A stretch of DNA of 23,006 bases from Pseudomonas sp. PGPPP3. GTDB taxonomy: Bacteria; Pseudomonadota; Gammaproteobacteria; Pseudomonadales; Pseudomonadaceae. The notes below the pieces were generated by a model. That model did no database searches. It worked only from the letters and a program-made list of their open reading frames with translations, and was not told the DNA's origin. Positions within the stretch are counted from its first letter, which is position 1. Each line of letters starts with the position of its first letter. The DNA is taken from the NCBI GenBank assembly GCA_002256055.1, contig NKIE01000002.1, positions 1,646-24,651 of the forward strand, read 5' to 3'. The position numbers were made by a program, and so were the translations under genes. Of the stretch, positions 6,482-22,759 are shown piece after piece.

Positions 6482-6485
6482 CAGC

Positions 6486-7111: not shown

Positions 7112-7144
7112 CCTGTTTCGCAATACCAACTGGAATTGTTGATC

Positions 7145-7765: not shown

Positions 7766-7807
7766 GACAGCCAAGCCCTTAAATCATCCACCAGCAGATG
7801 CCAAACC

Positions 7808-7849: not shown

Positions 7850-7986
7850 GAGATACGATGAAGGTGACGAGTCCGTGGCAACACTTGAATTTCGGAACCT
7901 GGCCCTTTTGGTTACTCGTTGAGAACAGGCGGGCTCGATTGGAATTTACCATCCCTTGACAGACAAAACGGGCCCAAGAAGGCATC

Positions 7987-9372
7987 ATGCAACCTCTTGA
8001 AGTAATCACGCTGATGACCAAATCCATTGCCACCCTCGTCGCCATGCTCATGGCAGCCTTCATTTCACACTCCTTCGCCGCCGAGGAGAACCAGAGGCGC
8101 GAGAAGAAGTTCAAGGGGGTGGAGCTCTATGCCCGCTACGACAAGGACAAGAACCAGTGGTGCTTCGGAATGCTTTCCGGGACGAATCGCGAAAAGCAGG
8201 CGAACGAAGTGAATGAATCCCTGACCCTCAACGGACTCGATGCCCTCCTCGCGGAAATGAAGCAGCTCGCACCCCAGGAAGAGGTGTTTCTGGTCTCGTC
8301 GGGTTGGAACGATTTGCAGGTAAGTCCGCTGGACGAGGACACTCAGAAGAAACTCGTCGAGTTCTGCGCGAAGCACGAGATCATCCTCAGCGGCGAGGGA
8401 AAATGGCTGCAACAGCCCAACCGGACGATTGCCGCGATGGAGGCATCCGCCACCCTTCGCGAGCTGATCCTTTCCCAGACTGAAATCGACGGCAAGGGAC
8501 TGGCGATGATCGCGGAGAAATTCCCCGCCCTCGAGTCGCTGGAGCTTTCCTACTGCGGGATCACCGATGCGGACCTTTCGCCTCTGGGCAAACTCAAGGC
8601 GCTCCAGACGCTGAAGATGAACGACAACTACGAGATGACTGGCAACTCGTTCGGTTTCGTGGCGGATCTGAAAAACCTGCGCCGTCTTAATCTGGACCAG
8701 TGCGTGAAACTCACCGACGAGGCAGTTGCCGGGATTTCCAAATCCTCCACCATCGACTCGCTCAACCTCGGCTCCTGCAAGAGCCTGACCGCAGCCTGTG
8801 GCCCTCATCTGGCCGCCATGACAGGCCTGAAGGAACTGGCGGTTCCGGGGATCGGACTTCCCGATGCCTCCATCAAGGACCTCGTGAAAATCAAAGGCCT
8901 GACCTCGCTCGACATCGCAGTGAGCAAGGTTTCGGATGAGAGCCTGGCCTTGATCTCCACCCTGCCGAATCTCAAGCGCCTGGACCTGCGGGCCTGCCGG
9001 AGCCTGACCTTCAATGGCATCAAATCCCTGGCTCCTCTGCACTTGGAATCCCTCGACCTGAACGTGGTCGGGAGTGAGAGCGAGCCGCTTGACGAGAACG
9101 AATTGATCAAGTTCGCCAAGGAAACCTGGCCAAGATGCGAGGTCTATACCACGCACAAGCATATCAAGCCGCGATTGGACTTCGGCTTCCGTCCCGCTGG
9201 TCGGGTACCTGCAGGCAGCGGTTCAAGGTGCCGCGAATCTACCTGCTATGCCCATAGCCGGGTCAGACCGCCAAAACTCCCAGTGCCCATGGTTCCGTCG
9301 GCCAGCCGCAGTCACTCTCGTTCGGAAAGTTCAGATTTCTGCCAAGGATTTCCCAGTCGGCGTGTCATCTAG
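7987..9372 (+). CDS. Secreted leucine-rich repeat protein with an anomalous C-terminal tail
   Basis: The start at 7987 is preceded by AAGAAGG four bases away; an in-frame ATG at 8014 would place the signal peptide (MTKSIATLVAMLMAAFIS) at the very N-terminus and is equally possible. After export the protein has an N-terminal domain of unknown type (about 35-150) and then leucine-rich repeats (about 155-370), for example LRELILSQTEIDGKGLAMIA, LESLELSYCGITDADLSPLG, LRRLNLDQCVKLTDEAVAGI and LKRLDLRACRSLTFNGIKSL. The Cys/Asn and LTDEA pattern resembles AMN1/F-box-type LRRs. The last approximately 70 residues, after about 9180, are rich in Arg, Ser and Pro with no repeat pattern and look like read-through into non-coding DNA. 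The protein probably mediates protein-protein contacts outside the cytoplasm. Confidence 0.82.
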   Translation: MQPLEVITLMTKSIATLVAMLMAAFISHSFAAEENQRREKKFKGVELYARYDKDKNQWCFGMLSGTNREKQANEVNESLTLNGLDALLAEMKQLAPQEEVFLVSSGWNDLQVSPLDEDTQKKLVEFCAKHEIILSGEGKWLQQPNRTIAAMEASATLRELILSQTEIDGKGLAMIAEKFPALESLELSYCGITDADLSPLGKLKALQTLKMNDNYEMTGNSFGFVADLKNLRRLNLDQCVKLTDEAVAGISKSSTIDSLNLGSCKSLTAACGPHLAAMTGLKELAVPGIGLPDASIKDLVKIKGLTSLDIAVSKVSDESLALISTLPNLKRLDLRACRSLTFNGIKSLAPLHLESLDLNVVGSESEPLDENELIKFAKETWPRCEVYTTHKHIKPRLDFGFRPAGRVPAGSGSRCRESTCYAHSRVRPPKLPVPMVPSASRSHSRSESSDFCQGFPSRRVI

Positions 9373-9392
9373 CATGAACTCCATCACACGCC

Positions 9393-10847
9393 ATGAGAAA
9401 CCACCGCTTCATGACCCTCCGCCGCCTTGCCGGCCTCTCCCTGCTCGGCACCGCCGCCACCGCCAGCGCGGATCCCTCACTGACGATCTACAACCAGAAC
9501 TTCGCCGTCGTCCGCGATACCCTGCCGCTCGACCTCAAGGCCGGCGTCAATGAAGCCCGCTTCTCCGGCATGACTGGCCTGGCGGAAACCGATTCGGTGA
9601 TCCTGCGCGACTCGGCCGGAAAGGCGAAGTTCCAGATCCTCGAGCAGGCCTATCGCAACGATCCCGTCTCCTCCGGCCTGATGCTCCAGCTCAACGAGGG
9701 CAAGACCATCGACTTCTTCGTCCGCGAGCCGAACAAGCCCGACCGCACCGTGCAGGGCACCATCATCCGCAGCGGCTACTCGCCCGGCGGGCAGATCACC
9801 CAGCCGATCATCGAGGTGGAAAAGAAGCTCCAGTTCTCCCTGCCCGGCGAACCGATCTTCCCGGCCCTCGGCGACGACACCATCCTCAACCCCACTCTCA
9901 CCTGGACCCTCAACTCCGCCGAGCCCGCCAAGTTCGATGCCGAGATCGCCTACGTCACCGGCGGCCTCTCCTGGAAGTCCGATTACAACATCGTCGCCGC
10001 CGACAAGGGTGACACCATCGACCTCGTCGGCTGGATCACCTTCAACAACCAGAGCGGCACCGGTTTCAAGCAGGCCAAGGTCAAACTCATGGCCGGCGAT
10101 GTGAACAAGGTGCAGCCGCAGGCGATGTCCATGCGCGCAATGGGAGGGATCAAGAGGGACATGGCAGCGGCCGCGATGGACGAACCGGTCAGCGAGAAAT
10201 CCTTCGCCGAGTTCCACCTCTACACAATCGGCCGCCCGGTCACCCTGCGCAGCCAGGAGACGAAGCAGGTCGAGTTCATCCGCAGCACCGGCGTCAAGGC
10301 TCCGAAGATCTATGTCTATGACGGCGCGACGATGAACTACGGCGCGTGGAACTACTATCGCGGCGAGGGCGAATACGGCGTGCCGACCAACAAGAAGGTC
10401 TGGACGCTGCGCGAGTTCAAGAACAGCAAGGACAACAACCTCGGCATGGCCCTGCCCAAAGGCCGCCTGCGCTTCTACAGCCAGGATGACGACGGCTCGC
10501 TTCAGTTCACCGGGGAGAACAACATCGACCACACCGCCAAGGACGAAACCGTCCGCGTCTACCTCGGCAACTCCTTCGACCTCGTCGGCGAGCGCCGCCG
10601 CACCGCCTACAAGGTGGATTCGTCCAACAAGTGGCTCGACGAGACCTTCGAGGTCAAACTCCGCAACCACAAGAAGGAGCCCATCGAGATCCGCGTCGTC
10701 GAGCACCTCTCACGCTTCGACAACTGGGAGCTGAAAGAGAAGTCCGACGACTTCCGCAAGCTCGACAGCCACACCATCGAGTTCCCCGTCACCGTCAAGC
10801 CGGACGAGGAAAAGATCGTGACCTACAAGGTCCACTACACCTGGTGA
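9393..10847 (+). CDS. DUF4139 domain-containing secreted protein
   Basis: 484 residues with a signal peptide (MRNHRFMTLRRLAGLSLLGT, cleaved after ATASA). The mature protein starts with a beta-rich segment (LTIYNQNFAVVRDTLPLDL) and continues into DUF4139 from about residue 180, recognised by AEIAYVTGGLSWKSDYNIVA, GWITFNNQSGTGFKQAKVKL and HLYTIGRPVTLRSQETKQV. Related proteins occur across bacteria and eukaryotes; the mucoidy inhibitor MuiA-like family shares this domain, but no biochemical activity is established. The gene begins 20 bp after the LRR stop and may be co-transcribed with it. Downstream, it converges on the hom/toxin-antitoxin region, with a strong hairpin 11 bp past the stop. Confidence 0.88.
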   Translation: MRNHRFMTLRRLAGLSLLGTAATASADPSLTIYNQNFAVVRDTLPLDLKAGVNEARFSGMTGLAETDSVILRDSAGKAKFQILEQAYRNDPVSSGLMLQLNEGKTIDFFVREPNKPDRTVQGTIIRSGYSPGGQITQPIIEVEKKLQFSLPGEPIFPALGDDTILNPTLTWTLNSAEPAKFDAEIAYVTGGLSWKSDYNIVAADKGDTIDLVGWITFNNQSGTGFKQAKVKLMAGDVNKVQPQAMSMRAMGGIKRDMAAAAMDEPVSEKSFAEFHLYTIGRPVTLRSQETKQVEFIRSTGVKAPKIYVYDGATMNYGAWNYYRGEGEYGVPTNKKVWTLREFKNSKDNNLGMALPKGRLRFYSQDDDGSLQFTGENNIDHTAKDETVRVYLGNSFDLVGERRRTAYKVDSSNKWLDETFEVKLRNHKKEPIEIRVVEHLSRFDNWELKEKSDDFRKLDSHTIEFPVTVKPDEEKIVTYKVHYTW

Positions 10848-10858
10848 TCAGCCCTCAA

Positions 10859-10885
10859 GGAGCGTGGGCAGGATGCCCACGCTCC
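10859..10885. terminator. Perfect 12-bp hairpin with 3-nt loop, probable bidirectional terminator
   Basis: GGAGCGTGGGCA (10859-10870) and TGCCCACGCTCC (10874-10885) are exact reverse complements around GGA. It lies just after the DUF4139 stop and just beyond the hom-derived remnant on the other strand, so it sits where two convergent transcripts would end. No uridine run follows on either strand, so it may act as a barrier or be a dispersed intergenic palindrome rather than a textbook Rho-independent terminator. Confidence 0.6.
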
Positions 10886-10890
10886 CTGAA

Positions 10891-10936
10891 TCAAATCTTC
10901 TCGATCCGGAACACCACCGGCGTGCTGTTGATGCAG
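10891..10936 (-). pseudogene. Remnant duplicate of the 3' end of homoserine dehydrogenase gene
   Basis: These 46 bp match 11777-11822 at 44 positions. On the minus strand they encode CINSTPVVFRIEKI plus a TGA stop, exactly the C-terminus of the intact hom gene 840 bp away. The two differences (GTG for GTC, CGG for AGG) are both synonymous. No other part of hom is present. The remnant ends 5 bp from the toxin stop codon. Confidence 0.85.
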
Positions 10937-10941
10937 CTGAG

Positions 10942-11361
10942 TCAGGGTGCGAGGATTTCCGGATCCCCGGAGCGGTGGAAGGAGAGGAAATCGCGGAGAT
11001 TCAGAGTGAAGAGGCGCTTCGCTCCGGCCTTGCGGGCGGCGACGAGATGCAGGTAGTCGTGAATCGCTCCGCCACGGACGCCACGAGACTCCGCCTCTTC
11101 GAAGGCGCTCAGAAGGTCTGCCGGGCTCAGTGAATTACTGACGAGCTTGGGTGAGACCTGCAGGCGTAGCAGAGCAGCGGCGTCAGAAGGGGCGACACGA
11201 AAGCCAAGCCTACCGCCGGTCAGGGTACTGAAGGCCTCCGAGTAGGCGTGATCGAAGACGGTGGTCCGACTGGTGAGGAGCGCTTTCCGACAGGCGGCAT
11301 GGTCGGGATCATCGGCGCAGAGCGCGGAGATGAGGACCGAAGAGTCGAGAGCGGACTTCAT
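10942..11361 (-). CDS. PIN-domain toxin (VapC-like) of pair 2
   Basis: 139 residues from ATG 11361, overlapping the antitoxin stop by 4 nt. PIN signatures are present: MKSALDSSVLISAL with Asp6, HAYSEAFSTL with Glu42, GGAIHDYLHLVAARKAGA with Asp102, and LFTLNLRDF with Asp124. This set matches the PIN subgroup that includes VapC toxins paired with AbrB-type antitoxins. The active site appears complete, so the protein should be an RNase able to arrest growth when unrestrained. It has little similarity to the pair 1 toxin outside the catalytic positions, so the two are not a recent duplication. The stop is only 5 bp from the hom-derived repeat, placing this gene at one boundary of the apparent insert. 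Confidence 0.88.
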   Translation of the reverse strand: MKSALDSSVLISALCADDPDHAACRKALLTSRTTVFDHAYSEAFSTLTGGRLGFRVAPSDAAALLRLQVSPKLVSNSLSPADLLSAFEEAESRGVRGGAIHDYLHLVAARKAGAKRLFTLNLRDFLSFHRSGDPEILAP

Positions 11362-11639
11362 TTCCGTTTCACGCGTGTGGTCGCCCGCTCGTCGCGGAAA
11401 TCCCGATCTGCTTTAAGGGCCTGCACGATGCTGCCGCGTTTGAGGGGAGGGCCACCTTGGATCACAGGGAATCCATCCTTGAGCTTGATGCTCACCGGAT
11501 CCGGCTCAGGTGCCGCGTGGAGTTTGCCGCCCTGGACTTCCAGTTTCAGTCGGCTGCCTTCGTGCAATCCGAGACTGTCGCGGATGGACTTCGGCACGAC
11601 CAAGCGTCCGGATTTGCCAAGGGTGATGGTAATGCCCAT
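11358..11639 (-). CDS. SpoVT/AbrB-fold antitoxin of pair 2
   Basis: 93 residues from ATG 11639; an upstream extension to 11675 would add 12 residues (MRSATKNGNSIA) that do not fit the domain. MGITITLGKSGRLVVPKSIR followed by DSLGLHEGSRLKLEV is the swapped-hairpin AbrB/MazE DNA-binding fold, seen in VapB and MazE antitoxins. The remainder (about 45-93) is Pro- and Lys-rich and probably wraps the PIN toxin. Its stop overlaps the toxin ATG (11358-11361), antitoxin first. An inverted repeat centred on its start codon is a likely autoregulatory site. Confidence 0.85.
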   Translation of the reverse strand: MGITITLGKSGRLVVPKSIRDSLGLHEGSRLKLEVQGGKLHAAPEPDPVSIKLKDGFPVIQGGPPLKRGSIVQALKADRDFRDERATTRVKRK

Positions 11640-11656
11640 GGCAATTGAATTACCAT
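11626..11656. promoter_or_regulatory. Inverted repeat spanning the pair 2 antitoxin start, probable operator
   Basis: ATGGTAAT (11626-11633) and ATTACCAT (11649-11656) are exact reverse complements separated by 15 bp, with the antitoxin ATG (11637-11639) between them. AbrB-fold antitoxins bind AT-containing palindromes in their own promoters, so this is a reasonable operator. The spacing of arm centres is 23 bp, about two helical turns. The role is inferred. Confidence 0.45.
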
Positions 11657-11776
11657 TTTTTGTGGCACTCCGCAATGAGCAATGTCGTCAGGCGCAAGTG
11701 ATTCACCTCGAAGGGCGGGAAGCCAGAGACGCTTGATGCTTCTGCGCTTTCTCCCTCTCTTCCCTGAAATCTCTCT

Positions 11777-11822
11777 TCAAATCTTCTCGATCCTGAACAC
11801 GACCGGCGTGCTGTTGATGCAG
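11777..11822 (-). repeat. 46-bp direct repeat, copy within the intact hom 3' end
   Basis: This is the partner of 10891-10936 (44/46 identical, same orientation). The copies bracket 840 bp containing only the PIN/AbrB pair. A short TCCCTGAA also occurs just outside each copy (10883-10890 directly adjacent; 11761-11768 separated by 8 bp), which may be residual homology of the original sequence downstream of hom. Confidence 0.85.
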
Positions 11823-13096
11823 TCGAGGGATTCGATCTGGGCGAGTGCGGTCTTGAGGGTGCCGAACTTGCAGGTGTGGAGCAGGAAGACCATGTCGACG
11901 AAGGCGGCGTCGGGGTTTTCCGGATTCACCGGGGAATGGGTGCCGGAGATGCCGATGCGGTGATCCGCCAGCACGCGGGCGATTTCCGCGACTACGCCGG
12001 GGCGGTCGGTGACATCGAAGCGGACGTAGTAGGCGGTCTCGGTTTCCTCGACGGGCAGAAGATTTCCGGACTCACGGTAGGGGAGGAAACCACGATGGCC
12101 GTTCGGCAGGGCGAGGGAACGCGCGGCCTCGACGAGGTCGGCCACGACGGAGGAGGCGGTTGGGTCCTGGCCGGCCCCACGACCGTAGAAGAGGGCATCG
12201 CCGACGGCATCACCATGGACGGCGATGGCATTGAAGACGCCGTTCACGGAGGCAAGGATGTGCTTTTTCCCGATGAAGGAGGGCTGGACGCGCAGCTCGA
12301 TGTCGCCCGAGGCATGCTCGCGGATGACGGCGAGGAGTTTCACGACGTAGCCGAGTTGCTTGGCGAAGGCGATGTCGATCGGCCGGACCTGCTCGATGCC
12401 GGCGACGTGGATTTTCGCGGGATCGATGGGAAATCCGTAGGCGAGGGTGGCGAGGAGGATGGCCTTGTGGGCGGCGTCCCAGCCATTGACGTCGAGGGTG
12501 GGATCGGACTCCGCGTAACCCAGGCCCTGGGCCTCGGCGAGGGCGGGCGGGTAGTCGAGCCCGGCCTCGGTCATGCGTTGGAGGATGTAGTTGCTGGTGC
12601 CGTTGATGATGCCGACGATGGAATCGAGGCGGTTGCCGACGAAGGATTCCTGGACCGACTTGATGATCGGGATGCCTCCGGCGACGGCGGCCTCGAAGTG
12701 GATCGGGGTGTCGAATTCCCGGGAAATGGCGAACAGTTCGGAGCCGCGTTCGGCGAGGAGGGCCTTGTTGCCGGTGACCACGGGCTTTTTCGCGCGCAGG
12801 GCGGCGGCGACGATCTCGAAGGCATCGGTGGTGCCGCAGATGAGCTCGACGACGAGGTCGACCGCCGGATTTTCCACCAAGGCGCGCCAGTCGGTGGTGA
12901 GGAGCTCCGGGGGAACATCCGAAGCGGTCGCGCGGGTTTTGGCGGGATCGCGGACGAGGATGCTGCGGATGGCAAGCTCGACCGAGCCGCCGGTGCGGTC
13001 GGTGATGAGTCCGCCGTTGCGTTGCAGGGTGTTCCAGACTCCGGAACCGACGGTTCCGAAGCCAGCGAGGCCGATGCCGAGTGTGGAGCAGGTCAC
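11777..13096 (-). CDS. hom: Homoserine dehydrogenase
   Basis: 439 residues from a GTG start at 13096. It reduces aspartate semialdehyde to homoserine with NAD(P)H, the branch point to threonine and methionine. Visible parts: Rossmann site GLAGFGTVG (about 10-17), VVTGNKALLA (about 106-115), AAVAGGIPII, the family signature region GIINGTSNYIL through GYAESDPTLDVNGWDAAHK with the catalytic Lys at about 211, and a C-terminal ACT domain (about 357-430) starting YYVRFDVTDRPGVVAEIARV, which usually gives threonine feedback control. Length is normal for the ACT-containing form. The last 46 bp are repeated at 10891-10936 on the far side of a toxin-antitoxin pair. No other threonine genes are nearby. 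Confidence 0.97.
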   Translation of the reverse strand: MTCSTLGIGLAGFGTVGSGVWNTLQRNGGLITDRTGGSVELAIRSILVRDPAKTRATASDVPPELLTTDWRALVENPAVDLVVELICGTTDAFEIVAAALRAKKPVVTGNKALLAERGSELFAISREFDTPIHFEAAVAGGIPIIKSVQESFVGNRLDSIVGIINGTSNYILQRMTEAGLDYPPALAEAQGLGYAESDPTLDVNGWDAAHKAILLATLAYGFPIDPAKIHVAGIEQVRPIDIAFAKQLGYVVKLLAVIREHASGDIELRVQPSFIGKKHILASVNGVFNAIAVHGDAVGDALFYGRGAGQDPTASSVVADLVEAARSLALPNGHRGFLPYRESGNLLPVEETETAYYVRFDVTDRPGVVAEIARVLADHRIGISGTHSPVNPENPDAAFVDMVFLLHTCKFGTLKTALAQIESLDCINSTPVVFRIEKI

Positions 13097-13163
13097 GGCG
13101 CGACTCTGAGGGCTGACCGGGCCTGCGCCAAGAGCGGAGAATGGGAAACCTGGGGCGGGCGGA

Positions 13164-13415
13164 TTATTCTTCCGCGCCCAGCTGTCGTTCCGCCTCCAGC
13201 CAATCGCCTTCGTGGCTGCCTGGCAGGTCGTTTTCGATCCGGCGGCGGTAGTTCAAATAGGCGGCCTTGGCGATCTCGTCGGTGCTGGGCCGGGCCTTCG
13301 GGACCGTTTTCGCGGCCTTCTTGGCAGCGGCCTTTTTCGCAGGCTTGGGCGCGGCGGCGTCCGGAGATTTCGCGGCCTTCTTTGCCGCTTTCTTGGCAGT
13401 TTTTTTCGCAGCCAT
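13164..13415 (-). CDS. DUF2934 protein with histone H1-like Lys/Ala-rich tail
   Basis: 83 residues from the ATG at 13415; the frame is open to 13457 but MAAKKTAKKAAKKAAK is the natural N-terminus. Residues 1-40 are almost wholly Lys, Ala and Pro with KKAAK and PKPAKKAAAKK repeats, as in histone H1-like bacterial proteins. Residues of about 44-80 (STDEIAKAAYLNYRRRIE and DWLEAERQL) match DUF2934, a short helical domain of unknown role. The basic tail suggests DNA or RNA binding. It is 67 bp upstream of hom on the same strand and divergent from the OmpA-like gene. Confidence 0.8.
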   Translation of the reverse strand: MAAKKTAKKAAKKAAKSPDAAAPKPAKKAAAKKAAKTVPKARPSTDEIAKAAYLNYRRRIENDLPGSHEGDWLEAERQLGAEE

Positions 13416-13486
13416 GAGGACAGGTGGTTGGAGTTGACCCAGCACGACCGATGCCATTTAGCCGGGACGGTCCGAATATCGCATGA

Positions 13487-13514
13487 TTGCAAGTGGGTTG
13501 TGAAGCCGTATAAT
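13487..13514 (+). promoter_or_regulatory. Sigma70-type promoter giving a probable leaderless transcript
   Basis: TTGCAA (13487-13492), a 16-bp spacer, then a consensus TATAAT (13509-13514). The predicted transcription start, 6-7 bp downstream, falls on the GTG at 13521 that starts the OmpA-like reading frame. This would give an mRNA with no leader. There is no Shine-Dalgarno sequence before the GTG. Confidence 0.6.
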
Positions 13515-13520
13515 GCGCCC

Positions 13521-14768
13521 GTGGCAAACGAGTATTCATGGCGAAACGGGAGCAGCGCGGCGGTTTACCGTGAGCCCAGCCATGACCATTTCGGCTGGTG
13601 GGTTCTGGCGGCGCTGCTGCTTTCCCTGCTGCTGCATGTGGTCGCCTTCTTCGCGCTTGATCGCGTGAAGATCGTGCTCGGTTTCCCCACCTCCGAGGAA
13701 ATCCAGACCGGACCGGTGAATGTGGATCGTGTCGAGATCAGCCCGCCAGACGTCGAGGACATTCCTCCGCACGACGAGGCCGTGATGCCACCGAAGGACC
13801 TCGCTCCGCTGCTCGATGAGGTCGATATCCTCGACAAGCTGCCAAAGGACGCCGACATCGACATGACCGCCGATCTCGACAAGCCGGTCTTCAATGTGAA
13901 GATCCAGAGTCCCGTCCAGTCCGGCGACCCGGAGGGCGCGACGGAAACCTCCGCCAAGGGCTTCATTGTCGACTCCGATCTCAAGGATTTCGGTCGCAGC
14001 GAAACAAGCCTGATGCCTGCTGCCGACGGTCAGATCGTGATCGATCCCGGCGCACTCAAGGCCGACGAATACGACAGCACCAAGCTCGTCGATGACCTCC
14101 TGAAAAAGGGCGGCGGTGGAAAGATCGACAAGGGCAGTCTCGAAGGCACGATCGATGACCTGCTCGGCCTTCCGGCGAATGTCCTCGTCGGGAAAACCAC
14201 CACGCTGCCCGGTGACCTGCTGTTCGAATACAACAGCTCCGAGCTTCGCGAGAGTGCCCGCGTCGGACTGATGAAGCTGGGCACGCTGATCGACCTGAAC
14301 CCTGGACTCTACTGCTGGATCGATGGCTACTCCGACCTTTTCGGTGGCGATGATTTCAACTACAGCCTCTCCCAGCGCCGCGCCGAGTCGGTGAAGCGCT
14401 ACCTCACGGAATCCCTGCGGATCGATTCGAAGAGGATTTTCCCACGAGGCTTCGGCAAGATGCAGCCGAAAGTCATGACAGGCTCGATCGACGATCAGGC
14501 ACCCAACCGCCGCGTCGAAATCAAGATGCGCAAGACCACGCCGCCGGAAGTGCAGCGGCCAATTCCGGTGCCGCCGAAAGCGGATCCGGTGCCGGCGGTG
14601 GCTCCTGTCGAAAGTGCTCCGCCGAAAGCGATTCTCGTCAAGCCTGCCCGCGCCCTGCCGGTGGAGGAAGAGCCACCTGCGCCTGTCGCTCCACCGCGTG
14701 CCCGTCCGGTCGAGGAGGCCCCGCGTCCTCCAGCCGCCGTGCCGAGAGCGGAAGCAGTCGAAGAATGA
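13521..14768 (+). CDS. OmpA-like peptidoglycan-binding protein with inner-membrane anchor
   Basis: 415 residues from the GTG at 13521, chosen because a consensus promoter lies 7 bp upstream; the open frame back to 13212 runs through the promoter and is not coding. A single transmembrane segment (about residues 26-47, WWVLAALLLSLLLHVVAFFAL) anchors it, followed by an acidic periplasmic region with Pro-rich repeats (SPPDVEDIPPHDEAVMPPKD). An OmpA C-terminal domain spans about 230-335: LLFEYNSSELRESA, DGYSDLFGGDDFNYSLSQRR and NRRVEIKMRK, with the conserved Asp and Arg that hold diaminopimelate. After this comes a Pro/Ala/Val-rich tail of about 75 residues. It probably links the inner membrane to the cell wall. 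A MotB-like ion channel signature is absent. Confidence 0.82.
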   Translation: MANEYSWRNGSSAAVYREPSHDHFGWWVLAALLLSLLLHVVAFFALDRVKIVLGFPTSEEIQTGPVNVDRVEISPPDVEDIPPHDEAVMPPKDLAPLLDEVDILDKLPKDADIDMTADLDKPVFNVKIQSPVQSGDPEGATETSAKGFIVDSDLKDFGRSETSLMPAADGQIVIDPGALKADEYDSTKLVDDLLKKGGGGKIDKGSLEGTIDDLLGLPANVLVGKTTTLPGDLLFEYNSSELRESARVGLMKLGTLIDLNPGLYCWIDGYSDLFGGDDFNYSLSQRRAESVKRYLTESLRIDSKRIFPRGFGKMQPKVMTGSIDDQAPNRRVEIKMRKTTPPEVQRPIPVPPKADPVPAVAPVESAPPKAILVKPARALPVEEEPPAPVAPPRARPVEEAPRPPAAVPRAEAVEE

Positions 14769-14794
14769 CCGGCCCGGGGTTGCTCCGGTCCGTT
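14767..14794 (+). terminator. Possible Rho-independent terminator after the OmpA-like gene
   Basis: GACCGG (14767-14772) and CCGGTC (14785-14790) form a 6-bp stem with a 12-nt GC-rich loop, followed by CGTTTTC. It overlaps the stop codon of the OmpA-like gene. The stem is short, so the call is tentative. Confidence 0.35.
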
Positions 14795-14813
14795 TTCACG
14801 ACTAGAAGCCCGC

Positions 14814-15611
14814 ATGCAGAGGCTCGATCCGGTTGAGGTGGTTTCCACGGTGCTGTCGTTTGATTTCGATGGCACCCTTCACGATCCGTCCGCCGTGCCC
14901 TCCGTGCCGACCGGTTTTTTCGAACTCATCCGGGAACTTCGGGCAAGCCATGGGGCCGCGTGGGGAATCAATACCGGACGCTCGATGCCGCACGTGGTCG
15001 AGGGCCTGGTGGAGTCCGGTGCACCCTTTCTTCCGGACTGGGTCGTCGCACGCGAGCGAGAGATCTATTTCCCGAATCGCTTCGGCCGCTGGGTGCCGCA
15101 GGAAAAATGGAACCAGCGCTGCGAAAAGGACATCCATGGGCTCTTCAAAAAACATCGCAAGCTGCTCAAGAAGATCCGCGACGAGGTGCTGGCGCACACC
15201 GGGGCCGAGTGGATCGAAATGGAAGGCGAGCCGGCGGGTCTCGTGGCGCGGCGTGTCGAGGACATGGAGTGGATCGAGCCGCGTGTCACCGCGCTCGCGG
15301 CAGAGGCTCCGGACCTCGGCTGGCAACGGAACTCGATCTGGCTTCGCTTCGGTCACCGGAACTACCAGAAGGGTAGTAGTTTGGCGGAGGTCGCCCGGCA
15401 TTACGGCGTGAAGGCGGAGCGCTGCTTCGCCACGGGCGACGGCCACAATGACCTCGCCATGCTCACCCCGGAAGTCGCCGGGCTGCTCGCATGCCCGGCA
15501 AACGCCGTCGAGGAAGTCCGCGCCCAGGTCGCCCGCCACGGAGGCCACGTCTGTGAACAAGGCCACGGCGACGGCGCGGTCGAGGCGTTGGAGAGGTTTT
15601 TTCCGAGCTGA
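14814..15611 (+). CDS. HAD-superfamily hydrolase, Cof/sucrose-phosphatase-like (type IIB)
   Basis: 265 residues with all HAD motifs: motif I SFDFDGTLHD (nucleophile Asp17 and Asp19), motif II INTGRS (Thr54), motif III Lys186 in NYQKGSSL, and motif IV GDGHNDLAML (Asp209, Asp213). The cap region between motifs II and III has the size of a type IIB cap, as in Cof phosphatases and sucrose- or mannosyl-3-phosphoglycerate phosphatases. It should hydrolyse a small phosphorylated metabolite, perhaps a sugar phosphate; the substrate cannot be told. It is followed after 4 bp by a small membrane protein gene, so the two are probably an operon. Confidence 0.88.
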   Translation: MQRLDPVEVVSTVLSFDFDGTLHDPSAVPSVPTGFFELIRELRASHGAAWGINTGRSMPHVVEGLVESGAPFLPDWVVAREREIYFPNRFGRWVPQEKWNQRCEKDIHGLFKKHRKLLKKIRDEVLAHTGAEWIEMEGEPAGLVARRVEDMEWIEPRVTALAAEAPDLGWQRNSIWLRFGHRNYQKGSSLAEVARHYGVKAERCFATGDGHNDLAMLTPEVAGLLACPANAVEEVRAQVARHGGHVCEQGHGDGAVEALERFFPS

Positions 15612-15615
15612 TCCG

Positions 15616-15939
15616 ATGGCCTTCAAGAATCCGTTTTCAAGAGCGATGCCCCCGGACCGTGCGACCCGCTGGGAAATGTCCCGTCAGAGGGGGAGGTGGG
15701 GTTTTGCGCTCCTGAGCGGGGTAGTGGGCTGGGGTATTCCCATGACGATCGGCATGTCCCTTTTCCTGCACGGAAGGCATTCCGAACCGCAGTTTTGGTT
15801 GCAGGTCGTGCCGTTCAATCTTGGTCTCTACTCGCTCGGCGGGCTGCTGCATGGCCTCTGGATGTGGCGCTTGAACGAACGGGCCTATTTGAAATTTAAG
15901 AAGGAAACCGAAGAGCGGTTACCTCCTTCGGATTCCTGA
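15616..15939 (+). CDS. Small membrane protein of unknown function (107 aa)
   Basis: Start ATG at 15616, 4 bp after the HAD gene stop. The N-terminus (MAFKNPFSRAMPPDRATRW) is basic and cytoplasmic-looking. Two hydrophobic segments follow: WGFALLSGVVGWGIPMTIGM (about 29-48) and VVPFNLGLYSLGGLLHGLWM (about 63-82), and then a charged tail with KFKKETEERLPPSDS. I do not recognise a family. The upstream open frame to 15448 is the HAD gene read in another frame. Its stop is 12 bp from the convergent purK stop. Confidence 0.75.
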   Translation: MAFKNPFSRAMPPDRATRWEMSRQRGRWGFALLSGVVGWGIPMTIGMSLFLHGRHSEPQFWLQVVPFNLGLYSLGGLLHGLWMWRLNERAYLKFKKETEERLPPSDS

Positions 15940-15951
15940 TGAGGCTCGGAA

Positions 15952-17076
15952 TTACGAACCCGAGCGACCATTTGCCAGCCACTTCGCCTTCATTGCTTCC
16001 GCGCGTTTAAGGCAGTCTTCGGTGGTGGCTCCGAGGAAATTGGCGTGACCCATTTTCCGGCGACCGATCGCGCGGCGCTTTCCATAAAGATGCAGGAAGG
16101 CTTCGCCATCTTCGAACAGCGGCGCCCAATCGGGCAGGGTGATTTCTGCCGGCCACATGTCGCCTAACAGATTCAGCATGACCACTGGTGAAAGCAGACG
16201 CGTCGAGCCCAGCGGCAGGCCGGCCACGGCGCGCAGATGGTTCTCGAACTGGCTGCACTCGGCGCCTTCGATGGTCCAGTGCCCGGAGTTGTGCACCCGC
16301 GGGGCGATTTCGTTGGCCTTCAGGCCGCCGTCCACTTCAAAGAACTCGAACGCCAGCACGCCGACGTAATCCAAGGCCTTGAGCACCCGACCGACGTAGT
16401 CTTCGGCCAGTTTCTGCAGCGGATGCTGGGTGCTGGCGATCGACAGGTTGAGCACGCCGTTGACGTGGGTGTTGTGCACCAGCGGGTAGAAGCGCGTTTC
16501 GCCATCACGGGCGCGCACGGCGATCAACGACACTTCGCCGCTGAACGGCACGAAGCCTTCGAGAAGGCACGGCACGCTGCCCAGCTCGGCAAAAGCACCC
16601 GTTACATCGGCCGCCTTGCGCAGGACTTTCTGGCCCTTGCCGTCGTAACCCAGGGTACGGGTCTTCATCACGGCCGGCAGACCAATGCTGGCCACTGCGG
16701 CATCAAGGTCGGCCTGGGACTGGATATCAGCGAAATCCGGGGTCGGAATGCCGAGGTCCTTGAACAGCGACTTCTCGAACCAGCGGTCGCGGGCGATGCG
16801 CAGGGCTTCAGCACTCGGGTAGACCGGTACGAACTGCGAGAGGAAAGCCACGGTCTCGGCCGGCACGCTTTCGAACTCGAAGGTCACCAGATCGACTTCA
16901 TCAGCCAGCTGGCGCAGATGGTCGAGATCGCCGTAATCGGCACGGATATGCTCGCCCAGCGCCTGCGCGCAGGCATCCGGCGCCGGGTCGAGGAAGGCAA
17001 AGTTCATCCCCAGCGGGGTCCCTGCCAACGCCAGCATGCGGCCCAGTTGACCGCCACCGATTACACCGATTTTCAT
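15952..17076 (-). CDS. purK: N5-carboxyaminoimidazole ribonucleotide synthase, chimeric reading frame
   Basis: 374 residues from ATG 17076. PurK uses ATP and bicarbonate to carboxylate aminoimidazole ribonucleotide, feeding PurE. The N-terminal biotin-carboxylase-like fold (MKIGVIGGGQLGRML), the ATP-grasp loop TRTLGYDGKGQKVL and metal-binding segment GVLAFEFFEVDGGLKANEIAPRVHN are intact. Residues 1 to about 285 match Pseudomonas PurK closely in my memory of the family. After the conserved NHLRAVAGLPLGST the C-terminus (LLSPVVMLNLLGDMW, HLYGKRRAIGRRKMGHANF) is of the type found outside pseudomonads, where one expects a sequence like KVGESAMLNFIG. The frame is uninterrupted, but the two ends appear to come from different genomes. 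The protein as written should not be trusted. Upstream open frame to 17382 is purE in another frame. Confidence 0.9.
   Translation of the reverse strand: MKIGVIGGGQLGRMLALAGTPLGMNFAFLDPAPDACAQALGEHIRADYGDLDHLRQLADEVDLVTFEFESVPAETVAFLSQFVPVYPSAEALRIARDRWFEKSLFKDLGIPTPDFADIQSQADLDAAVASIGLPAVMKTRTLGYDGKGQKVLRKAADVTGAFAELGSVPCLLEGFVPFSGEVSLIAVRARDGETRFYPLVHNTHVNGVLNLSIASTQHPLQKLAEDYVGRVLKALDYVGVLAFEFFEVDGGLKANEIAPRVHNSGHWTIEGAECSQFENHLRAVAGLPLGSTRLLSPVVMLNLLGDMWPAEITLPDWAPLFEDGEAFLHLYGKRRAIGRRKMGHANFLGATTEDCLKRAEAMKAKWLANGRSGS
16190..16260. other. Probable chimeric junction inside purK
   Basis: The change from the verrucomicrobial-type to the pseudomonad-type PurK sequence occurs around codons 275-295, which encode one of the most conserved parts of the enzyme. 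Genes on the left are verrucomicrobial in content, genes on the right pseudomonad. A conserved stretch is where an assembler or recombination could switch templates while keeping the frame. The exact base cannot be fixed by eye. Confidence 0.7.
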
Positions 17077-17080
17077 CTGT

Positions 17081-17572
17081 TTAGGCCTCGCGTGGATCTG
17101 AGTTGTCCAGCACCGCGTCAGTCTGATCCTGGCGGAACTGCTTGAGCGCGACATGGAACTGCGGGTGTTGGTGACCAAGGATGCTGGCCGCCAGCAGCGC
17201 CTCGGTGACCGCGCCGGCCTTGCCGATGGCCAGGGTCGCAACCGGAATGCCGGCCGGCATCTGCACGATGGACAACAGCGAGTCGACGCCCGACAGCACG
17301 GCCGACTGCACCGGCACACCAAGCACCGGCAGGTGGGTCTTGGCCGCACACATGCCCGGCAAGTGCGCGGCGCCGCCGGCACCGGCGATGATTACTTGGA
17401 TACCACGCGCCTCGGCCTCTTCAGCGTACTGAAAGAGCAGGTCCGGAGTACGGTGGGCGGACACCACTTTGACTTCGTTGGGGATGCCGAGCTTGTCGAG
17501 CATCTCCACGGTATGGCTGAGGGTGCTCCAATCGGATTTGGAACCCATGATCACGCCAACCAGTGCGCTCAT
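17081..17572 (-). CDS. purE: N5-carboxyaminoimidazole ribonucleotide mutase
   Basis: 163 residues, the usual length of class I PurE. It moves the carboxyl group of N5-CAIR (made by PurK) to give CAIR, step six of purine synthesis. Conserved segments: [10 protein letters not shown] (phosphate-binding loop with Ser and Asp), SAHRTPDLL with the catalytic His, and [14 protein letters not shown] Shine-Dalgarno-like GAGG lies about 9 bp before the ATG. purK starts 4 bp after its stop, so the pair is one operon as in pseudomonads. The leader upstream contains a promoter-like -10 and a terminator hairpin. Sequence is pseudomonad throughout, unlike the end of purK. Confidence 0.97.
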
Positions 17573-17608
17573 CGTCTTGCCTCATCTCAGTGCGCCAACC
17601 GGCGCGAC

Positions 17609-17643
17609 AAAAACTAACAAGCCACGCGGTGTGCGTGGCTTGT
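17609..17643 (-). terminator. Rho-independent terminator or attenuator in the purE leader
   Basis: An 11-bp perfect stem (17617-17627 with 17633-17643, ACAAGCCACGC against GCGTGGCTTGT) with a 5-nt loop is followed, in the minus direction, by TTAGTTTTTG. It lies about 45 bp before the purE ATG and about 140 bp after the SPFH gene stop. It can end SPFH transcription, or, if the upstream promoter is real, attenuate purEK. Confidence 0.75.
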
Positions 17644-17688
17644 CATGTGCAGATCAAACCAGCCAGCGGCCAGTTTTTAAGGCCGGGC

Positions 17689-17694
17689 AGTATA
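17689..17694 (-). promoter_or_regulatory. Candidate -10 element (TATACT) of the purEK promoter
   Basis: On the minus strand TTTTCGGTATACTGCCCGG contains TATACT, close to the sigma70 consensus. A -35 is weak (GCGACA with 15-bp spacing). If used, the start would be near 17681, giving a leader of about 110 nt that contains the terminator hairpin before purE. Confidence 0.4.
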
Positions 17695-17783
17695 CCGAAA
17701 AGCCGCGCCTGTCGCGCCCCCGCGATGACCGCTGGTCAAGAGGCGATTAGCGCATGTGGCGCTAACCGCTGCAGGCCTGACGC

Positions 17784-18644
17784 TTACTTGCTGGCGTCGA
17801 TAAACGGCAGGGTGCCGTTGGGCAGCACGGTGGTGGGCAACTTGCCGTCCCAGCGCTCGGCTTTGGTCAGCTCGATCAGCATCGGATTACTGCTCAGGGC
17901 CAGGGTCTTGGCCTTGATCGCATCGGCTTCAGCGCTACCGCGCAAACGCGTGGCTTCGGCATCGGCCTTGGCCTGGGCGACCTTGGAGTCCGCCTCAGCT
18001 TGGGCGCGGGTGACCACGATCTGCGCTTCGACCTGTTCGGTGGCGAGCATCTGTTCGCGGGTTTTCACCTCGACCTCGGCCTTCATGCGCAAGGCAATGG
18101 AGCGCTCGTAGTCATCGGAAAAGTCGATGTTCTCCACCTGCACACCGTCGATGACCACCGGGCCGCTTATTGAGTCCTTGATTGCCTTGGTCACGTCGGC
18201 CACAAACTTGCCGCGGTTCTGCACCGCACTCACCGCGTTGTACTGACCGAAGACGTTCTCCACCTGGGTTGGCACTTGGCGGCTGATCAGGCGCGAGACC
18301 AGACCATCGAGGTCCTGGTACTGCGTGTACACCTTGCCAACTTCCGCCGGCACCACATGCCAGGACACCGAGACATTCAGGGTCGCGGTCTGCTGGTCCT
18401 TGCTGTAAGCCTGCAGCCCTTGGTAGGTGGTGGCATTGCTCTGCACCGAGATGAATTTCACGCTCTCGATAAACGGGATCTTCAGCGACAGCCCCGGCTC
18501 AACAACCCCGACTAGCGCGCCATTGCGTAACAGCACGCCACGCTCAGTTTCATTCACCGTGTACCAAGAGCCCATCAGCACAAGCAGCAACAGCAACGCC
18601 AGCAGCCCGCCGGCAATGGATTTGAGGTTCAGCATCGGATTCAT
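17784..18644 (-). CDS. SPFH/prohibitin-family membrane protein
   Basis: 286 residues from ATG 18644, which has a good Shine-Dalgarno (AGGGAGAA, about 4-5 bp away); the open frame to 18710 lacks one. An N-terminal transmembrane helix (about 9-27, IAGGLLALLLLLVLMGSW) is followed by the SPFH/Band 7 domain (about 28-200), with YTVNETERGVLLRNG and VSVSWHVVPAEVGKVYTQY, and then a charged Ala/Glu/Lys coiled coil (EAQIVVTRAQAEADSKVAQA onward). This is the layout of prohibitin and HflK/C-like proteins, which form rings in the inner membrane and modulate proteases such as FtsH. No hflC- or nfeD-like partner is next to it. Confidence 0.9.
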   Translation of the reverse strand: MNPMLNLKSIAGGLLALLLLLVLMGSWYTVNETERGVLLRNGALVGVVEPGLSLKIPFIESVKFISVQSNATTYQGLQAYSKDQQTATLNVSVSWHVVPAEVGKVYTQYQDLDGLVSRLISRQVPTQVENVFGQYNAVSAVQNRGKFVADVTKAIKDSISGPVVIDGVQVENIDFSDDYERSIALRMKAEVEVKTREQMLATEQVEAQIVVTRAQAEADSKVAQAKADAEATRLRGSAEADAIKAKTLALSSNPMLIELTKAERWDGKLPTTVLPNGTLPFIDASK

Positions 18645-18880
18645 TCGGTTCTCCCTGTGAGGTATCCAGCGTGGCTCCAGCGCCACCCGCTGCCGTTTAA
18701 ACCACATCAACGGCGTTTTTGCACGTCAACACTAGCCAGGTCGCCGAGCCGACGGCGCTGGTACCCAGGCATAACAATCTAATTATGTGATTATTTTCAT
18801 CGTTAATATGCGCTTTTTAATCAATTTATTACGCCTATCATGGACTCCACACCCACCCAGCCCCCACAAGGAGCCACCTC

Positions 18881-19186
18881 ATGAAAAGCCAAGCCTTCGC
18901 CAGCCTGATCCTGGCCAGCCTGTCCTTTAACGCCTTTGCCCTACCCGAAAGCCAACCCCAGCCGCTGCTGGGCGAACTGCGCAGCAGCCAGGCCGACGAG
19001 CAAAAACTCAGCCCCCAGCCGCTGGCCGAAGGCGGCGCCGAGCGCCTGAACAATCGTCGGATTGCCGAAGATGGCGCCGATCGTGTCGGCCGCAAGCGCA
19101 TTGCCGAGGGCGGTGCCGAACGCGTCGGCAACCGCCGTATCGCCGAAGGTGGCGCCGAGCGCTTGCTTAACATGCGCCAGGCCTGA
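18881..19186 (+). CDS. Small secreted protein with four 13-residue AEGGAER repeats
   Basis: 101 residues with a Shine-Dalgarno AAGGAG (18868-18873), 7 bp before the ATG, and a signal peptide (MKSQAFASLILASLSFNAFA). The mature protein has a short acidic stretch and then four tandem copies, 13 residues apart, of AEGGAERxxNRRI (AEGGAERLNNRRI, AEDGADRVGRKRI, AEGGAERVGNRRI, AEGGAERLLNMRQ). Similar small Pseudomonas proteins with AEGGSDR-type repeats are sometimes labelled 'phage infection protein', a name I would not rely on. The alternating acidic and basic residues suggest self-association or binding to a charged surface. The 236-bp gap upstream, shared with the divergent SPFH gene, is AT-rich near 18775-18840 and probably holds its promoter; TATCAT (18836-18841) is a possible -10. 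Confidence 0.78.
   Translation: MKSQAFASLILASLSFNAFALPESQPQPLLGELRSSQADEQKLSPQPLAEGGAERLNNRRIAEDGADRVGRKRIAEGGAERVGNRRIAEGGAERLLNMRQA
19025..19180 (+). repeat. Four 39-bp tandem repeats inside the secreted repeat protein gene
   Basis: Four units of 39 bp encode AEGGAER-type 13-residue repeats. The repeats are imperfect at DNA level but hold frame, so selection appears to act on the protein. They are within a coding gene and not CRISPR. Confidence 0.8.
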
Positions 19187-19215
19187 GCACCGCATGCATC
19201 GGCAGGCCGAGCGGA

Positions 19216-20307
19216 TCAGTCGTGCTGAGACGAATGCATAACCGGCTCAGCGCGATCGGCCATGGTCAGTTGCAGGTCCTCCAACTCGGCAAACACACTG
19301 CTCATGACCTGCACCAGATGCGGATCGAAATGCCCACCGGCATTTTCGAGGATGTAAGCCTGAGCACGCTCGGCACTCCAAGCCTGTTTGTAGGAGCGTG
19401 GCGAGCGCAGGGCATCGTAAACATCACAGAGTGCGACGATGCGCCCGGACAGCGGAATCTCTTCGCCTTTCAGGCCATTCGGGTAGCCGTTGCCATCCCA
19501 GCGCTCGTGGTGGGAAACGGCAATTTCCGCTGCCAGATCGGTCAGCGGTGAACGCTGTTCATCGCGCAGGATGTCGTAGCCGATTTGTGCATGCTGGTTC
19601 ATTCGCAGACGCTCATCACTGTCCAGCCGCCCCGGCTTATTGAGGATGGCATCGGGAATGCCGATCTTGCCAACATCGTGCATCGGCGCCGCCAGGCGCA
19701 GCTGTTCGATCCATTTGGCATCCATCCCCAGGGCCCGGGCAATCAGCGCTGCCGACTCACCGATGCGCAGGATATGGTCGCCAGTCTCGTTATCCTTGTA
19801 GCCGGCGGCGCGCGCCAGGCTGCGTATCACCGACTGATAGCTGGCGCGCAACTGCGCAGTACGCTGCTGCACTCGCTGCTCCAGTTGGTCGCGCTCTTGC
19901 TGCAGGGCCTGGCTGGCCAGGCTCAGCTGCAGGTTGTTGCGCACCCGCAGGAGTAAATCCGGCAGGTCCAGAGGCTTGCAGATGTAGTCGTTGGCGCCCA
20001 ACTCCAGACCGCGGCGGCGCTCATCCAGGCTATTGAGCGCGGTGACGATAATCACCGGCGCGCGACCGCGGTCGCGGTTTTCCAGCTGCTGCAGGATCTC
20101 AAAGCCATTCGGCGCCGGCATGTCCAGGTCCAGCAACAACAGGTCCCAGGGATTGGCCTGCAGCCAGGCCAAGCCTTCGGCGGAATCGCTAAAGGTCTTG
20201 ATCTCACGCAGGCCAAAGGCCTTGAGGCTGGACTCCAGCAGGCGCAGGTTGGCACGCACATCGTCGATCACCACCACGGTGGCAAAACGCAACACATCAG
20301 ACAGCAT
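19216..20307 (-). CDS. Response regulator with HD-GYP c-di-GMP phosphodiesterase domain
   Basis: 363 residues from ATG 20307, inside the kinase 3' end (11-nt overlap); GAGG lies about 9 bp before it. A receiver domain (about 10-125) has ATVVVIDD, phospho-acceptor Asp60 in LLLLDLDMP, Thr89 and Lys111 (CKPLDL). A helical coiled linker (about 130-155) leads to an HD-GYP domain (about 160-340): HILRIGE, APMHDVGKIGIPD (HD at 210-211), AVSHHERWDGNGYPNGLKG (GYP at 274-276) and VALCDVYDALRSPR. All main metal ligands appear present, so it should break down cyclic di-GMP when activated by phosphorylation. Pairing with the overlapping kinase gene makes it that kinase's likely target. It resembles RpfG-type regulators. 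Confidence 0.93.
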   Translation of the reverse strand: MLSDVLRFATVVVIDDVRANLRLLESSLKAFGLREIKTFSDSAEGLAWLQANPWDLLLLDLDMPAPNGFEILQQLENRDRGRAPVIIVTALNSLDERRRGLELGANDYICKPLDLPDLLLRVRNNLQLSLASQALQQERDQLEQRVQQRTAQLRASYQSVIRSLARAAGYKDNETGDHILRIGESAALIARALGMDAKWIEQLRLAAPMHDVGKIGIPDAILNKPGRLDSDERLRMNQHAQIGYDILRDEQRSPLTDLAAEIAVSHHERWDGNGYPNGLKGEEIPLSGRIVALCDVYDALRSPRSYKQAWSAERAQAYILENAGGHFDPHLVQVMSSVFAELEDLQLTMADRAEPVMHSSQHD

Positions 20308-22759
20308 CGGTCGTGACCTCGTGTAGCAGCGCACTTACCAGCCCGCGCAGCTCATCCAGATTGATGGGTTTGGCCAGCAGCCCTTGGCAGTCGAGCATGG
20401 CCAACCGCGCCGTTTCGACAGCTGCGGTCAGCACCACCACCGGCAGCTCGCGGGTTTGTGCATGGCGGCGCAACTCGCGCAGCAAGGCTTCGCCATCCAT
20501 GTCGGGCAAATGGAAATCCAGCAGCAGCAGGTCCGGCGGTGTCGCCAGGATGCGTTCCAGAGCCGCCCGACCATTGCCGGCCACGTGCACCTCAGCCAGG
20601 TCGCTCAGGGCCTTGCGCACCAGAAACTGGCTAGCGGGATTGTCTTCCACATAAAACACCTGACGGCGTACACGCGGGCTCGTCGCGAACGCCTCGACAG
20701 CCTCATCATCAGGGGTGTCGGTCGGGCTGGAGGTCGGCAACAGCGGTAGTTCGATCCAGAAGCTGCTGCCGATACCCGGCTCACTGTGTACGCCCATTTG
20801 CCCCTGCATCAGGCTGGCAAACTCACGGCACAGCGACAGGCCAATACCGGTACCCTGGATCGCGGTATTTTCCCGACCCAAGCGCTGGAAGGGTTCAAAC
20901 AGTTGAGCCTGTAGATCGGCGCTGATGCCCAGCCCCGTGTCCTCGACCAACAGGCGAATATGCCCGGCGGCCACCTGATAGCTGAGGGTGATATGGCCGT
21001 TGACGGTGTTGTACTTGATCGCATTGGACAGCAGATTGATCAGCACCTGACGCAACCGCCGCGGGTCAGCCGGCACCCGCAAAGACTGGTCGGGCAAATC
21101 GAGGTTGAGGTGCAGATCCTGCGCCAGCACCTCAACACGGACCATGTCGGCACACTCATTCATCAACTGGGTGACATCCACTGGCTGCAGCTCGAGCTGC
21201 GGCTTCTCGGCCTGCACACTGGACCAGTCGAGAATGTCGCCAACCAGCTGGTTGAGGTGCGTACTGGCGAGCATGATTTCATCGAGGTAATCGGCCTCGC
21301 TGCTGGCGCTCTCGACCGGGTGCTCTAAGCGCAGCAGCTGAGCAAAGCCGTAGATGGCATTCAGCGGCGTGCGCAACTCGTGGGAGATGCTGGAGATAAA
21401 TCGCGACTTGGCCTGACTGGCCGCCTGCGCTTCAAGGTGCGCCTGGCGCAGGTCGGCCTCGGTCTGCTTGAGCGCACCGATATCCACATGGGTGCCAGCC
21501 AGCATGAGCGCCTGCCCGGTCTGCGGATCGCGCTCCACCACCCGACCACGACTGAGCAACCAGTGGTAATGGCCGCTGGCATCGGCAAAACGAAACTCGG
21601 CCTCGTAACGCTCACTGCCCGAGTCGTCGAGCAATTGCCGCGAGGTGTTCATCCGCGCCACGTCATCGGGATGCACGCGCTGGATAAAAGCGTCATCACT
21701 GATTTCGCTACCTGGCAGGCCGAAGCGCTCGACGAAACGCCCGCGCAAGCTGACCAGGCGGGTATCAAAGTTAAGCTCCCAAAGGCTCTCCGTGGCGCTT
21801 TCCAGGACCAGCTCAAGGCGCTGCTGGACACTCGAACGCTGCGCTTCGCTGTGCTCCAGTTGCGCACCCAGATCGACGGCATGACCGGCCATTTCGTCCA
21901 GCTCGTCGATGTCCGAAGGCACCCGCGCGGGACGCCGGTTACCGCGACCAATCTCGCGCATCATCTGTGAGATACCGGTAATCGGCCGACGCAACTGAGC
22001 ACTCAACTGCTTTGCGCGCACCCACATAAAGCTGAAAAACACGGCATAGAACAGCGCCAGGCCAGCAATCAGCAGGTAGCCGATTTCCTTGTAGCGCTGG
22101 GCCAGGCTGTTGGTCTGGGCAAACACATCCGCCTCGGCCACCACAGTGAGCAAGTGCCAGTCGGTTTGCGCAATGCTGGCCCAGGCCACCAAGTGAGCCT
22201 GGCCACCAAACTGCACGCGCTCGATGCCGGCGGCCTCGGTGGCCACCCGCTCGGCCAGCGCCTGGGTTTCCGCGCGCTTGCGCAGGTTGAAGTCCTCGGG
22301 CTTGAACAGCTCGCGGCGAATGGCTTCGGCGTAGGTGTGCTGGGTCAGCTCGTCGAGACCAAAATCATCTTCGCCCGCCTTGGGCAGGGCCATGATGTTG
22401 AGGTCCTTGCTGACCAGCATGGCGTAGCCGTTCCACGGCACCTGCAGCTGGCCGATCTCCTTGAGAATGCCGTCCACGGTGATGTCGATGCCCACCACGC
22501 CTTCGAGGAAATCGCCACGATAGACCGGGGCGATAGCCGAGGCCATCCAGCCCTGACCCGCCGGGTCGAGGTAGACATCGGTCCACACGACCTGGCGCTG
22601 CGGGTTGTGCTTGGCATCGGCGAGGTAATAGAAGTTGTAGTCGGGGATCACCATGTCATGGGGGTACTGGTCCGGGGTGTTGAACCAGGGGTAGATATGG
22701 TTGAGGCTGTCCCAGCCGTTGAAATACAGCGCCGCCACCAATGAATCCCGATCGATAAT
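20297..22759 (-). CDS. Hybrid sensor histidine kinase, 5' end truncated at a junction
   Basis: The frame is open from 20297 to 22759, where a stop follows; there is no convincing start codon (only TTG at 22741), and the first transmembrane helix and first half of the sensor are missing. What remains, numbered from 22741: distal half of a dCache domain (about 1-205; WTDVYLDPAGQGWMASAIAP, GVVGIDITV), a transmembrane helix (about 220-241), HAMP (about 243-295), PAS/PAC (about 310-430), HisKA with His454 (SISHELRTPLN), HATPase_c with LINLLSNAIKYN, DTGLGIS and GTGIGL, and a receiver domain with Asp742 and Lys791. Homologues would begin with a signal-anchor about 150-200 residues upstream. The end overlaps the HD-GYP gene. 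The gene is broken by the assembly or a rearrangement. Confidence 0.9.
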   Translation of the reverse strand: MIDRDSLVAALYFNGWDSLNHIYPWFNTPDQYPHDMVIPDYNFYYLADAKHNPQRQVVWTDVYLDPAGQGWMASAIAPVYRGDFLEGVVGIDITVDGILKEIGQLQVPWNGYAMLVSKDLNIMALPKAGEDDFGLDELTQHTYAEAIRRELFKPEDFNLRKRAETQALAERVATEAAGIERVQFGGQAHLVAWASIAQTDWHLLTVVAEADVFAQTNSLAQRYKEIGYLLIAGLALFYAVFFSFMWVRAKQLSAQLRRPITGISQMMREIGRGNRRPARVPSDIDELDEMAGHAVDLGAQLEHSEAQRSSVQQRLELVLESATESLWELNFDTRLVSLRGRFVERFGLPGSEISDDAFIQRVHPDDVARMNTSRQLLDDSGSERYEAEFRFADASGHYHWLLSRGRVVERDPQTGQALMLAGTHVDIGALKQTEADLRQAHLEAQAASQAKSRFISSISHELRTPLNAIYGFAQLLRLEHPVESASSEADYLDEIMLASTHLNQLVGDILDWSSVQAEKPQLELQPVDVTQLMNECADMVRVEVLAQDLHLNLDLPDQSLRVPADPRRLRQVLINLLSNAIKYNTVNGHITLSYQVAAGHIRLLVEDTGLGISADLQAQLFEPFQRLGRENTAIQGTGIGLSLCREFASLMQGQMGVHSEPGIGSSFWIELPLLPTSSPTDTPDDEAVEAFATSPRVRRQVFYVEDNPASQFLVRKALSDLAEVHVAGNGRAALERILATPPDLLLLDFHLPDMDGEALLRELRRHAQTRELPVVVLTAAVETARLAMLDCQGLLAKPINLDELRGLVSALLHEVTTDAV

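Follow-up and report, generated by a model that had tools for sequence, protein, structure and literature searches.

An in-frame purK hybrid of Pseudomonas and verrucomicrobial sequence in a Pseudomonas bin, very probably an artefact of metagenome assembly

De Bruijn assemblers split reads into words, and paths through the resulting graph can match no real genome; one source calls the k set 21, 33, 55, 77, 99 and 127 canonical and warns of misassembly (PMC8172020). According to the GUNC paper, misassembly yields chimeric contigs in MAGs, although more rarely than mis-binning does, and 8.0% of GTDB MAGs are contaminated (PMC8201837). A primer likewise cautions about interspecies chimeras (PMC2829047).

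Here we describe a contig in which the change from one organism to another falls inside the housekeeping gene purK. The window, by which we mean the whole stretch of DNA that was analysed (23,006 nucleotides), is bases 1646-24651 of contig C108 (27,096 bp). The bin holding this contig comprises 3,698,731 bases (3.70 Mb) in 914 contigs and is 80.98% complete with 3.02% estimated contamination. PurK finds a best match of 80-86% identity in 18 of 18 same-genus genomes, and the named matches of its N-terminal part are from Pseudomonas and close genera; the source of the window is a fragmented Pseudomonas bin. We conclude that the hybrid purK is very probably an artefact of metagenome assembly and not real biology, and that the join within it almost certainly exists in no cell.

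The two halves of purK

The features around the join are as follows.

15952-17076, minus strand: chimeric purK, a single open frame of 374 amino acids
15952-16201, minus strand: verrucomicrobial 3' end of purK, its last 80 residues 96% identical to protein P0003
16202-16222, minus strand: 21-base word CGGCCTGCCGCTGGGCTCGAC, identical in purK of the Pseudomonas genome G250 and the verrucomicrobial genomes G546, G548 and G550, and containing the join
17081-17572, minus strand: purE, in the Pseudomonas arm, directly upstream of purK

The original prediction held that purK is an in-frame hybrid of two genomes, with some 285 N-terminal residues of the Pseudomonas pattern and about the last 80 from another PurK lineage. 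Separate searches, which it had proposed for residues 1-280 and 295-374 and which were made here with residues 1-285 and the last 80, bear this out, the best-match taxa of the two parts being different. Among the best 120 of 8000 matches, residues 1-285 were closest, after the window's own protein (P0002), to P0122, P0123 and P0124 at 98-99%, followed by two proteins at 94-95% and then by proteins of Metapseudomonas, Ectopseudomonas and Pseudomonas at 91-93%. The best 120 of 2418 matches of the last 80 residues were headed by P0003, P0004 and P0005 at 94-96%, and those that carried an organism name were from Luteolibacter, Haloferula or Verrucomicrobiota. Only P0002 was common to these two sets of best 120, and its cluster consists of two sequences, both from one contig. 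Among the matches listed, the same junction was found in no relative, being present in the window's own protein alone, and G250 has a native purK with its native neighbours.

In the PurK alignment the lineage changes at LRAVAGLPLGSTR; the corresponding residues are GLPLGSTR in both P0122 and P0003. By codon, purK is of Pseudomonas type before 285, lies in the shared word at 285-292, and is verrucomicrobial thereafter for 82 residues. The breakpoint was placed with the 514 sites that differ between purK of G250 and purK of the verrucomicrobial G548. Of the 396 sites before the best breakpoint, the window follows Pseudomonas at 375, the verrucomicrobium at 11 and neither of them at 10; of the 118 sites beyond it, 91 are shared with the verrucomicrobium, 14 with Pseudomonas and 13 with neither genome. 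Pseudomonas-type sites end with 16223, and the first of verrucomicrobial type is 16201, so the switch lies between these two positions, inside the interval 16190-16260 for which it had been predicted.

The two arms of the contig

The remaining features divide into two arms, as listed here.

1-16201, no strand: verrucomicrobial (Luteolibacter-like) arm, in which 6.4-10.9 kb is assigned mostly by composition
4089-6437, minus strand: tail-specific protease (Peptidase_S41, TSP_NTD, DUF3340)
11777-13096, minus strand: gene that we take, from a reading of its protein, to encode homoserine dehydrogenase, with 86-97% protein identity in L135-L138 (from the genomes G513, G556, G548 and G550)
14814-15611, plus strand: gene adjoining purK, presumably HAD-type phosphatase-like as its protein reads, with 70-92% protein identity in L135-L138
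16223-23006, no strand: Pseudomonas arm; contig C381 of G250 is collinear with it until C381 ends

Gene content had been described as verrucomicrobial to the left of the join and pseudomonad to the right, and a tetranucleotide profile in 1-kb steps, the check that had been suggested, gives the same division. With a third-order Markov score trained on 21 Pseudomonas-genus and seven verrucomicrobial loci, which are partly homologous to the two arms, all 18 blocks of C108 1-18,000 carry the verrucomicrobial sign, the last of them containing the join, and all nine blocks of C108 18,001-27,000 the Pseudomonas sign. The composition thus flips once, at the purK join, and the left arm scores as verrucomicrobial as far as base 1 of C108, where the contig ends. 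In the controls, four of four loci from two verrucomicrobial genomes outside the training set scored verrucomicrobial, and four of four same-bin loci (on three contigs) and four of four blocks of another contig of the bin, C706, scored Pseudomonas. A further switch inside the left arm was considered and rejected, every block there having the verrucomicrobial sign, with the weakest score (-9.6) at C108 1001-2000. GC content shows no step along the window.

Homology gives the left arm the same affiliation. Homoserine dehydrogenase has 76-82% identity in five of six further verrucomicrobial genomes, the sixth being without a match. Window 1-10,900 has strong matches in all five verrucomicrobial genomes compared; in Pseudomonas, four of five genomes gave short matches (86 to about 300 bases) and the fifth none. 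Within this span, 6.4-10.9 kb matches those verrucomicrobial genomes only at 7191-7808 (70%) and in one 33-base piece, and its four proteins have no match in the seven stretches compared, so that the verrucomicrobial assignment there rests on composition.

The order of genes was checked in four verrucomicrobial genomes. In G513 and G556, on contigs of 5.3 and 5.8 Mb, the protease, homoserine dehydrogenase, an OmpA-like gene, the HAD gene and purK have the same order and strands as in the window, and purE follows in both genomes; the protease directly adjoins homoserine dehydrogenase in these genomes and lies about 5.3 kb from it in the window. G548 has the HAD gene on one contig and purK on another, neither of them near a contig end, so the order differs and is not universal, and in G550 purK is at a contig end. 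Ten further verrucomicrobial purK loci (L010-L015, L017-L019 and L022) have none of the left-arm genes beside purK, except for a weak AbrB match in L019, and the left-arm gene order near purK is therefore far from general.

Two other observations concern this arm. A 46-base direct repeat (10891-10936 and 11777-11822, 95.7% identical), which is the last 46 bases of the homoserine dehydrogenase gene with its stop codon, flanks two genes, one for a MazE-like antitoxin (11358-11675) and one for a PIN-domain protein (10942-11361). At up to nine mismatches there is one copy in the stretches compared from G513 and G556, which are without the two genes at that place, and there are two copies in the stretch from G548, which has them; the stretch from G550, which also has the MazE-like and PIN genes, has one copy at this threshold and a BLAST match of 80% over 81 bases at the second place. 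The repeat may be the mark of an insertion that duplicated the 3' end of homoserine dehydrogenase. At 1751-2935 the arm has a gene for an FG-GAP repeat protein, which also matches Dockerin_1 less strongly.

On the right, a DNA match to the purE-purK stretch is present in 394 of 398 genomes of the genus, the window's own genome counted. Besides the window itself, the best Pseudomonas match is G250, at 96% over 1,402 of 1,411 bases, and, the window's own locus apart, the 14 best Pseudomonas loci are 86-96% identical; the PurE protein has 57-62% identity to verrucomicrobial PurE. Identity to G250 per 300 bases, 94.7-99.3% near purE-purK, drops to 83.4-94.3% in window 17700-22600. A second join near 17.7 kb was considered, but G250 remains the best match over the arm among eight genomes compared and the composition is still that of Pseudomonas, and we therefore take the drop as a sign of faster-evolving genes. 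A small ORF in this arm, at 18881-19186, encodes a protein with repeated AEGGAER-type units.

The orphaned native end of purK

The strongest evidence for a false join is the finding of the native Pseudomonas purK end on C706, in the same bin, where it abuts the right arm in the sister genome G250. When the bin was searched with P0122, a protein of the native type, bases 2-130 of C706 proved 100% identical to its residues 319-361, the other matches being C108 itself, a 32% paralogue on C715 and three weak matches. C706 (4,170 bp; L111) aligns over its full length to C381 of G250 at 96.1% (L114, bases 8266 to 4059, descending). The right arm of C108 matches L114 from 8342 on in the ascending direction, with 95.0% identity across its first 2,157 bases. 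Read against G250, C706 begins 78 bp past the end of the 21-base word, inside the 3' end of native Pseudomonas purK, and the 78 bases that precede it there are missing from both C706 and C108, so that a fork of the assembly graph at the word is seen only indirectly. The PurK-like protein on C715 (2290-3396; 30% identity) was considered as the missing native purK and set aside: 18 of 18 same-genus genomes have such a second copy at 26-29%, and it is probably, as we suppose, the related paralogue PurT.

These contigs bear directly on the possibility of real recombination, in which at least 17.8 kb of verrucomicrobial chromosome entered Pseudomonas at purK and left a functional hybrid. The unbroken frame speaks in its favour, and the shared word could have acted as microhomology. 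A true recombinant must, however, lose or duplicate the native 3' end of purK, and that end is in the bin, in the native continuation that abuts the right arm in G250; moreover, the left arm is verrucomicrobial in both gene order and composition. Nor is there a tRNA in the window, or a mobile-element gene by eye among its ORFs or among the ten proteins scanned with Pfam, and the arm boundary falls within a housekeeping gene. We hold recombination to be highly improbable, and equally so the existence of a living Pseudomonas with a working PurK whose last 82 residues are Luteolibacter-like, acquired by way of the 21-base word along with 17.8 kb or more of adjoining DNA. A plasmid origin was also considered; a search with window 15400-18800 returned five records only (four from Sinorhizobium, one from Tsukamurella), at 5-6% coverage in the purE region, and gave no sign of a plasmid origin.

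A mixed bin would reconcile a real hybrid with a native end, if a minority strain carried the hybrid and the majority the native purK. The N-terminal part of the window PurK and P0122 are unlike at two positions, residues 60 and 171, so related strains do exist. Such a mixture would nevertheless require the same improbable cross-phylum event, and C706 (96.1%) and the right arm near the join (94.7-99.3% per 300 bases) are about equally close to G250; the probability that we give it is close to vanishing. Misjoining of two ordinary chromosomal arms by a k-mer assembler is the most likely explanation.

Origin of the join and comparison with other chimeric contigs

The original prediction placed the join at a conserved segment where short identical stretches between species are likely, and a stretch of this kind is indeed present. 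The 21-base word encodes the GLPLGST segment, and it is the longest exact match of G250 purK with the purK of G548 or G550, the next being of 13 bases. On the upstream side of the word, the window shares 295 of 300 bases with G250, 133 of 300 with G548, 134 of 300 with G550 and 100 of 198 with G546, for which there is less sequence; on the downstream side it shares 39 of 100 with G250, 169 of 200 with G548, 172 of 200 with G550 and 178 of 200 with G546. The verrucomicrobial side of the word is read from these three relatives, which are 82-85% identical over about 330 bases, the parent itself not having been found, and with this reading an exact word of k-mer length, 21 bases, is present at the join. 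The word is absent from purK of G513 and G556 and from L010 and L013.

Other shared words occur when a 14.7-kb stretch of G250 is compared with longer verrucomicrobial stretches. Outside purK-purK pairs, words of 16-20 bases are found in three of six of these, with lengths of 17 in L134, 17 in L138, and 20, 16 and 16 in L136. L133 shares only the 21-base word, and L135 and L137 share no word of at least 16 bases.

A chimera made during library preparation, through template switching in PCR or in whole-genome amplification at this short stretch of identity, and then sequenced and assembled, predicts the same switch at the shared word. But a rare chimeric molecule should not oust the native path unless coverage were very low, and C706 shows the native 3' end to be present in the bin; besides, a match of exactly 21 bases fits a De Bruijn k-mer misjoin well. 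We regard the library chimera as improbable. In all likelihood the join was the work of the assembler rather than of library preparation, with a small k as its probable cause.

The misjoin may be pictured as follows. Reads of Pseudomonas and of a Luteolibacter-like verrucomicrobium in the same data would share the 21-base word in the GLPLGSTR segment of purK, and the assembler would have passed from the Pseudomonas gene through this word into the verrucomicrobial one. The chimeric contig C108 would then have been binned with Pseudomonas, leaving the true Pseudomonas continuation in the bin as C706. This leaves the frame unbroken, since the two purK genes are homologues in which the word occupies the same codons.

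The hybrid purK holds no new biology, and its relevance is to data quality. A Pseudomonas bin with only 3.02% estimated contamination includes one contig of which about 17.8 kb is verrucomicrobial, and the hybrid gene would pass annotation as normal; work on gene transfer, on pangenomes or on the phylogeny of PurK can be misled by this. The contig also offers a compact test case, in which the join is in frame, the parents belong to two phyla, the shared word is known and the orphaned native end has been located.

Compared with native PurK (5-(carboxyamino)imidazole ribonucleotide synthase), each half of the window protein is an ordinary piece in its homologous position; what sets the whole apart is that the best-120 sets of the halves (of 8000 and 2418 matches) overlap in P0002 only. 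As in the interspecies chimeric contigs of metagenome assembly (PMC8201837, PMC2829047), C108 joins fragments of two organisms. It differs from these in that the join lies in frame within a conserved gene and the orphaned native end has been identified in the same bin.
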